DNA of 64,000 nt from Pseudomonas sp. N40(2020). Its GTDB lineage: Bacteria > Pseudomonadota > Gammaproteobacteria > Pseudomonadales > Pseudomonadaceae. The stretch spans positions 1 to 64,000 of the forward strand of contig NZ_JACSZV010000033.1 of NCBI RefSeq assembly GCF_014472415.1, given 5' to 3'. The notes below the pieces were generated by a model. It was not told the origin of the DNA, did no database searches, and saw only the letters and a list, made by a program, of their open reading frames with translations. The first letter of the stretch is position 1; each line of letters starts with the position of its first letter. The position numbers and the translations under genes are program-made. Positions 33,519 through 35,437 of the stretch are shown in pieces.

Positions 33519-33694
33519 TTTTGAACCTCAAAGTCATGTCGATGGCTCACGCGATACAGCCTGTTACCCAGCTCGCTGTTTGCCAGAGACAGATCAAGGT
33601 ATGGATGCGACTTCCGAGGGACAACCTGAAAGATTGGTAGGAAAATTCCCGAGTTTGCTGACGCTCTGAAACTCGTCTGACGCCTGTCAGTGCC

Positions 33695-34138: not shown

Positions 34139-34174
34139 GGATCGGTCCTTGCTGTTTCGAGCCATCCAAATACC

Positions 34175-34278
34175 GTTTCTCACGCGGCGAATTGGGTGGC
34201 AGCTATGTGCGAGGTGAGAAACCGGGCAAAGACCAGCAAACCTCCGGCCGGACCGAAGTCCGCCCGCACATAGCCGCC
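34175..34278 (-). promoter_or_regulatory. Structured leader RNA with crossing helices upstream of DUF6124
   Basis: In the transcript (minus strand) helix A pairs GGCGGCUAUGUGCG (34278-34265) with CGCACAUAGCUGCC (34211-34198), one G-U pair. Inside it is a GGAC-UUCG-GUCC hairpin (34261-34250). Helix B pairs GUUUCUCAC (34222-34214) with GUGAGAAAC (34183-34175), perfect 9 bp. The 5' arm of B lies inside A and its 3' arm outside, so the helices cross: either a pseudoknot or two exclusive folds. It ends about 37 nt before the DUF6124 ATG. No named RNA family could be assigned by eye. Confidence 0.6.
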
Positions 34279-34362
34279 ATAACAATGCAGCAGCGAATTA
34301 GCTGGCGGCAATTATGGGACTACTGGCGCTGGAATGACACTTACCCGAGTTCTCACACCCGA

Positions 34363-34380: not shown

Positions 34381-34483
34381 CAGCCAAAGACTAGAGATCC
34401 GACGTCCGACGGACAACCTGAAAACCTTGTGGGAAGGTTCTGGTGATCTCACATCGAGTTAAACAACGCGAATCGCCTCCCTC

Positions 34484-34577
34484 GTGTAGGAGCTGCCGAA
34501 GGCTGCGATCTTTTGACTTTGACGTTTCAACATCAAAAGCAGGATCAACAGATCGCAGCCTTCGGCAGCTCCTACAC
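34484..34577. repeat. REP pair (GTAGGAGCTGCCGAAGGCTG family)
   Basis: Opposed copies at 34484-34515 and 34551-34577. The arms are near identical to those at 27988 and 43122, with a spacer of about 35 nt. Confidence 0.87.
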
Positions 34578-34626
34578 GTGAGCCGGTGCATTCAGGAATG
34601 AAATCGCCCCCACATTGTCGGCACTG

Positions 34627-34977: not shown

Positions 34978-35079
34978 CTTTGTCACTCCAGAATCGCCAT
35001 CGCTGGCAAGCTCCCACAGTTTTGATTTGCACACCTACCCTGCGGCAAAGCCGCCCCACTCAACAGGATGAGCGTTAGC

Positions 35080-35437
35080 TCGGCTGCAGCTCTTGATCTT
35101 GATCCACAGGCCCCGTCGGCAGGCTGAGTGGAGGGATTCATCCGGGGGGGTAGGCGCGCAGCGCCGTTCGACGAAGTCGAACTCATCGAGAGGAGGTGCA
35201 GCGAAGCAAACCGGAGGCGATGCCCCCGGATGAAACCCGGAGCGAAGGAACCCCGAGCGTTAGCGAGTGGGCCGAACGTTGGGGCACAGACCTTTGGTTA
35301 CTTTGGGGCGTTTGCCAAAGTGACTCGCTGTAAGAGCGAAACCGCCAGCGGCAGCACCCGAAGAAATGGATATTCACCCAGTCAGCCAGAACATGGTCGC
35401 CTGTCAGGGCGCCATCGCCAGCAGGCTGGCTCCCACA
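35080..35437. repeat. Dispersed intergenic repeat region with a solo REP at its end
   Basis: The stretch 35080-35385 has no plausible gene. Segments such as CTTTGGTTACTTTGGGGCG and GCCAAAGTGACTCGCTG look like a long intergenic repeat I have come to expect in Pseudomonas genomes. At 35411-35437 a single GCCAGCAGGCTGGCTCCCAC REP follows, and a partial REP arm (TCGCTGGCAAGCTCCCACA) lies near 35000. The whole 34978-35525 gap therefore holds repeats and one terminator only. Confidence 0.5.

Follow-up and report, generated by a model that had tools for sequence, protein, structure and literature searches.

Upstream of a DUF6124 gene in Pseudomonas sp. N40(2020) lies a leader with crossing helices, and the question that this locus raises is what kind of RNA the leader is and what it does to the gene behind it. 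In the window, i.e., the whole stretch of 64,000 nucleotides that was analysed, an earlier note had described a 14-bp helix, a perfect 9-bp helix whose arms interleave with those of the first, and a UUCG tetraloop hairpin inside the first helix, and had taken the arrangement for a pseudoknot or a two-state RNA switch. The pairings are as described (Table 1): the 14 bp form part of a longer stem, the arms of the 9-bp helix are exact complements, and the hairpin is stem P2 of a C4 RNA. The window element belongs to the known C4 antisense RNA family (RF01695), and a new riboswitch or pseudoknot class was therefore set aside. Of the cis-regulatory RNA class tied to a lineage-specific protein family that had been proposed, the structured leader with DUF6124/DUF3077 genes stands, and the novelty does not, as the class is in Rfam as C4. 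Likewise, the crossing helices are real, yet they are best read, on the model of phage P1, as an antisense segment (a') and the mRNA site that it targets (a2), and not as a switch; a second antisense pair (b'/b2) had been missed. The labels follow the annotated phage P1 record, which assigns a' to the junction and b' to the loop of P3.

Table 1. Features of the C4 cassette and its DUF6124 gene, all on the minus strand; positions are those of the window
Feature	Positions	Remarks
Inverted repeat AACCTT-N5-AAGGTT	34423-34439	Upstream of the promoter; possible operator, function guessed
Likely promoter	34388-34416	TTGTCC (34416-34411), 17 nt, TAGTCT (34393-34388); read by eye
c4-a1b1 leader, RF03163	34342-34394	43.8 bits, E 3.5e-9, just below the cut-off of 46.7
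Site a1, GTGAGAA	34350-34356	7 bp with a'
Candidate site b1, CCAGC	34328-34332	Pairs with the P3 loop over only 5 bp; weak in this cassette
C4 antisense RNA, RF01695, full-length	34192-34284	68.9 bits, cut-off 45, E 2.6e-11 (whole window)
C4 stem P1	34279-34263/34213-34197	17 bp; contains the 14-bp helix 34278-34265/34211-34198
C4 stem P2 (UUCG hairpin)	34262-34258/34253-34249	Loop 34257-34254
C4 stem P3	34248-34244/34225-34221	Loop 34243-34226
Antisense segment b'	34226-34235	In the P3 loop; 10 bp with b2, including G-U
Antisense segment a', GTTTCTCAC	34214-34222	Between P3 and P1; 9 bp with a2
Target site a2, GTGAGAAAC	34175-34183	Just 3' of C4; perfect complement of a'
Target site b2	34143-34152	Over the Shine-Dalgarno AAGGA (34150-34146); pairs with b'
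DUF6124 gene, 119 aa	33779-34138	PF19619, 85.7 bits, cut-off 27; start (MTKIAPD) picked by its Shine-Dalgarno

That such a leader exceeds chance, as had been suspected, is borne out by the score to RF01695, by the folding energy, and by the first rank of its own targets among 45. The 126-nt stretch 34290-34165 folds with -56.9 kcal/mol versus -43.8 +/- 3.9 kcal/mol in shuffles (z -3.34), 1 of the 200 reaching its stability; Rfam's P3 is absent from the window's own minimum-energy fold. Compensatory changes were then found in the 47 C4 copies of the genome of Pseudomonas sp. N40(2020) (hereafter the own genome), where 94.4% of cells are paired and 16 of 27 pairs have changed on both sides. Cells with a double change number 139 compared with 33 when shuffled (0 of 500 shuffles as high), and slid structures, used as a control on the same copies, pair in only 33-40% of cells. 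The signal sits in P1 and P2 and is strong there. P3 varies little and shows little covariation, with 84% of cells paired, a shortfall that is partly due to misalignment. The bases that do vary among the copies are the pairing loops, and no sign of a ligand was seen.

It is very probable that the window holds a chromosomal C4-type antisense cassette that silences its own DUF6124 gene; this reading is drawn from the matches to RF01695 and c4-a1b1, the phage P1-like order, the self-matching of segments and targets, the covariation, and the placement. A single transcript would run from a1/b1 through the C4 RNA and a2 to b2, which overlies the ribosome-binding site, and on into the DUF6124 gene. 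The C4 RNA would fold and most likely be cut from the transcript, which in phage P1 is the work of RNase P. Once freed, it would pair through a' with a2 and through b' with b2, whereby the Shine-Dalgarno would be masked and the own gene silenced, and a1 and b1 would offer additional upstream pairing sites. Repression should be strongest once C4 has accumulated and weakest in a newly transcribed or newly arrived cassette. RNase P processing, trans action, and translational repression are proposed here by analogy with phage P1. According to excerpts of the literature, c4 RNA blocks translation near the ribosome-binding site of the ant mRNA (PMC12197685), and the release of C4 by RNase P is reported at second hand (PMC5320573).

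The same pairings could instead be made within one transcript by a two-state or pseudoknot leader that acts in cis only, with a' and b' joined to a2 and b2 and no antisense RNA set free, which we judge unlikely. The complete C4 shape is present, and the upstream and downstream sets of targets cannot pair simultaneously with one copy of C4. In addition, the P1 c4 RNA is described as acting in trans (excerpt of PMC8546580) and C4-like RNAs of Acinetobacter baumannii seem to be processed (excerpt of PMC5320573). These points weigh against a cis-only leader, even though the antisense segments lie about 30-70 nt from their targets in one transcript, which makes cis pairing sterically possible, and the self-match data given below measure complementarity and are silent on which strand copy pairs.

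A specificity matrix of every antisense segment against every target was computed for 45 own-genome cassettes (C52:13939 and C24:38237 were left out of the 47 copies, and the start codon of C20:9970 was placed manually at 46 nt instead of 28 nt). In a first version, scored with the P3 stem included, the matrix was noisy and energy placed the own target first in 5 of 45 cassettes; once this result was known, the segments were restricted to the loop alone and the junction alone. With these, the P3 loop binds its own Shine-Dalgarno region with a mean of -13.8 kcal/mol compared with -7.8 kcal/mol for others (longest Watson-Crick run 6.9 versus 4.0), and the junction binds its own site after C4 with -10.4 versus -6.2 kcal/mol (longest run 7.2 versus 4.0). 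The own-target fit of both segments was matched in 0 of 20,000 permutations, and the three control pairings, in which the loop was set against the a2 site or against the opening 25 nt of the ORF and the junction against the Shine-Dalgarno region, were null. The own target scored highest in 20 of 45 cassettes by loop energy, in 15 by junction energy, and in 33 by summed energy, by which it was among the best three in 42; in the window cassette, a' and b' each rank their own target first of 45 by energy. Orthogonality is thus partial, because 12 of the 45 cassettes have a better-scoring rival target. The upstream sites a1 and b1 are also self-matched in 39 cassettes (0 of 20,000 permutations, two controls null; the 6 cassettes without an a1b1 match were left out). 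Judged by its bases, each of the 45 complete cassettes bears its own code, mainly addressed to its own gene.

The match of loop and Shine-Dalgarno region recurs outside the own genome, each time with 0 of 20,000 permutations as good. The own target was best for 14 of 20 distinct codes from other genomes of the genus (10 of the 30 loci duplicate a loop already counted, and the start is wrongly placed in some). It was best for 8 of 28 codes from named Pseudomonas genomes, where starts were searched only 38-74 nt downstream, some lie one in-frame codon off, and L155 (no match), L173 (odd match), and L175 and L177 (no start) were excluded, leaving 76 loci. For viral contigs the count was 18 of 49 codes, L270 being excluded and 2 of the other 79 loci having no ORF.

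Which genes stand behind these RNAs? All 47 C4 matches in the own genome exceed the cut-off, as do 15 of its 40 c4-a1b1 matches; each search included 14 control genomes, and these gave no match to either family. A DUF6124 domain follows 37 of the 47 copies, 86-236 nt downstream, and DUF3077 follows 2, so that the association with these two families, which had been offered as an impression, holds for 39 copies. The remaining copies precede Bro-N proteins (2 copies; the one scanned against PHROGs is called anti-repressor Ant there), unnamed small ORFs that are alike by eye and have no Pfam match (4), or no usable target (2). Across the 45 cassettes the distance from the end of C4 to the start codon is 44-55 nt (one start hand-set). 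Seen from the gene, 37 of the 43 DUF6124 domains stand directly behind C4, and the other six include a gene in second place after such a cassette (C43) and a remnant next to C4 (C52). Open DUF6124 genes without a C4 match are found at C41, C44, and C20:18942. The gene at C41 (L077, G000:C41, about 211-628) has a c4-a1b1 leader and no C4 match, its antisense RNA seemingly having been lost.

Many DUF6124 proteins and one Bro-N protein share a start of the form M-x-K-x-TPNPPE or PDPP, the remainder being unrelated. The Bro-N protein (C58, L029) starts MFKATPNPPE like the DUF6124 proteins; the start in the window is encoded by 34138-34112. A constraint on the RNA may underlie the common start, or else cargo may have been swapped behind it.

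A small protein next to an antisense RNA, in many copies per genome, also recalls type I toxin-antitoxin systems, in which DUF6124 would be a toxin held off by C4. This is a claim on the cargo that is compatible with the antisense mechanism, and it appears improbable. DUF6124 is probably not a strong toxin because open DUF6124 genes without C4 exist in the own genome, the one at C41 together with a1b1. Furthermore, the predicted fold consists of three helices and looks soluble (pLDDT 81.7, pTM 0.47), and no match to the protein was found in PADLOC. The protein had no match in PHROGs or NCBIfam. Against the PDB, the structure gave 82 matches at E <= 10 and none at E <= 0.001 (50 of the 82 listed). 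By hhalign, DUF6124 is a relative of DUF3077 (94.5%, E 7.4e-8), and one protein matches both. A kinship of DUF6124 with Icd of phage P1 was also considered, and in the comparison the two were unrelated.

Beyond the own genome, C4 is present in 110 of 119 genomes of the genus, own included (17 genomes have at least 33 scored candidates each). The search of the order found it in 20 of 145 genomes, own included, the other 19 with one to six copies each (counts based on up to 28 scored candidates per genome). In named Pseudomonas genomes, 79 of the best 80 of 338 DUF6124 loci match R1, a C4 model built in the present analysis, and in 78 of these 80 the match lies directly upstream; the match at L173 is weak and overlaps the ORF, and L155 begins at a contig end. 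The window cassette had no match in plasmids, and the DUF6124 protein had one in phage records. Further C4 cargo in other genomes of the genus includes unnamed proteins of 52-57 aa (ALHANSSLATRL and similar; L078-L081, L091, L094, L095, L097, L098, L102, and L105), of which one was tested and had no PADLOC, PHROGs, or NCBIfam family.

In viral contigs, a C4 match was found at 33 of 39 DUF6124 loci, at 8 of them about 0.5-0.6 kb upstream and not adjoining. Such a match is also carried by the tailocin-region phage record EU982300, in which the C4-DUF6124 cassette (L114, EU982300.1) lies beside prtR/holin genes in a phage or tailocin region of P. fluorescens Q8r1-96. A set of viral contigs chosen by C4 pattern (at least 120 stretches, 80 loci used) has, by eye and among the matches listed, antirepressor-like, DUF6124/DUF3077-like, and other cargo. 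An anti-phage role of C4-like RNAs has been proposed for Acinetobacter (excerpt of PMC5320573), and the chromosomal copies might accordingly form a library that silences the antirepressors of incoming phages. The viral contigs do bear C4 before antirepressor-like genes, yet only 1 of 46 own loops is identical to any of the 51 viral-contig loops (exact identity, among the matches listed), and this single shared loop precedes a DUF6124 gene and not an antirepressor. We consider such a library very unlikely.

Since a genome holds many C4 copies and true intergenic repeats lie nearby, a dispersed repeat of the REP kind without a regulatory role has to be weighed as well; it is hardly credible. The random placement that such a repeat would have was not seen, and a REP-like element was ruled out by the complementarity to the own targets, the fixed spacing of 44-55 nt, and the covariation of the stems. 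The nearby repeat at 35056-35400 is dispersed between genes, with 30 own-genome matches of 77-100% identity, some in inverted pairs. It is found close to 7 of the C4 cassettes in the own genome; among the best 80 of 338 named DUF6124 loci, which are non-independent, 65 contain it. A near-perfect inverted repeat at 34482-34579 has sub-threshold Rfam microRNA matches and is probably an ordinary intergenic palindrome.

Upstream of the cassettes, hexamers resembling the window promoter recur in the own genome. The motif CAGGTTGTCCSTCGGA, found near 34423-34439, has 10 exact own-genome copies, of which 9 are upstream of C4 cassettes. Two conserved upstream classes were observed before the own-genome cassettes, TTGCCTAC...TACGCCAGAATCCGCCGGC and AACCTTCCCACAAGGTTTTCAGGTTGTCC, which suggests common regulators. 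As the promoter motif of one cassette class, CAGGTTGTCCSTCGGA is also present at 33613-33628 (minus strand), upstream of a gene for a DUF6036 nucleotidyltransferase. Among 15 genomes with this gene, the motif precedes it, with no C4 there, in the window and in five others (loci L236, L237, L240, L242/L250, and L243), and C4 is nearby in 2 of 16 DUF6036 loci of the genus, one being the window. A regulator shared by C4 cassettes and DUF6036 genes is possible.

How far the codes have diverged can be read from the loops. Among the 47 own-genome copies, 46 P3 loops are distinct; no loop is repeated in the 45 complete cassettes, the sole repeat being that of the remnant C52:13939 with C52:110694. 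The two members of the C32 tandem pair encode identical proteins (119 of 119 residues) and do not differ in P1 and P2 (0 of 48 positions), 18 of 90 synonymous sites differ versus 7 of 12 loop bases, and b1 and b2 have changed to match. Loop divergence was compared with synonymous divergence in four pairs, and the loops were the more divergent (Fisher p 0.008, 7e-6, 0.055, and 0.003; ungapped loops). In 115 cassettes (78 from named genomes and 37 own), no loop is shared in any of the 725 pairs taken from one genome, and 161 of the 5830 pairs taken from different genomes share one, a count that is no clean test of selection because orthologs are possible only in different-genome pairs. Selection against cross-talk combined with gene conversion of the remainder might explain the divergence of the codes. 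A tentative and rather doubtful extension is that the array of private antisense locks, its codes held apart by selection against cross-talk and its proteins conserved or homogenised, serves as chromosomal superinfection immunity or as self/non-self barcodes. If this were true, a unit would be silent in its owner and briefly expressed upon entering a cell without its code, and the array would therefore work as such an immunity or barcode.

In the literature found on C4 and on DUF3077/DUF6124, consisting of partial listings with subscription papers mostly outside them, nothing links C4 to these genes; the one paper found on DUF3077/DUF6124 deals, in an excerpt, with a P. putida DUF3077 pseudogene. 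The C4 literature found, with the same coverage, contains no description of private codes. C4 and c4-a1b1 have been tabulated in Proteobacteria and phages (excerpt of PMC2864571). The RNA class is thus already known; what appears new in the literature searched is its expansion into a privately coded array, together with the cargo. A definite regulator would be gained for dozens of small Pseudomonas genes that lack annotation, DUF6124 and DUF3077 among them, and the roughly 45 natural RNA-RNA pairs of a single cell, close to orthogonal, would provide a test bed for the evolution of antisense specificity.

Among the closest known systems is the C4 RNA of phages P1 and P7 (RF01695, RF03163). The annotated P1 record has the order promoters, a1, b1, C4, a2, b2, icd, and ant1. 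In the P1 DNA, both a1 and a2 are complementary to the junction a' (CTGTCAA); the P3 loop contains b' (TCACTAAC), which complements b2 and falls one base short on b1. The cassettes described here share with P1/P7 the three-stem fold and, with a likely promoter and probable a1 and b1 sites first, the order that leads through C4, a2, and b2 to the ORF; a' again occupies the junction and b' the loop of P3, and b2 lies on the ribosome-binding site. Unlike P1/P7, the own genome has 47 chromosomal copies, each cassette with its own code, and its cargo consists of DUF6124 and other small proteins with no icd. Unlike in the P1 c4-icd-ant operon, the regulated gene in the window is not an antirepressor, and Bro-N genes stand behind 2 of the 47 copies. 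The C4 and Bro-N cassettes of the own genome and of viral contigs have the same C4 and a loop that matches the Shine-Dalgarno, and differ in cargo. The Group 1 C4-like sRNAs of A. baumannii, of which an excerpt of PMC5320573 gives 21 in one chromosome with a variable loop and signs of processing, are similar in being many per chromosome and variable in the loop. That excerpt names no targets for them, whereas the own-genome RNAs adjoin a cognate gene with matching sites. A phage immunity RNA would have been converted to a multi-copy chromosomal control system: what is an immunity switch in the phage seems to have become, in the bacterium, an extensive series of gene locks, each with its own address.
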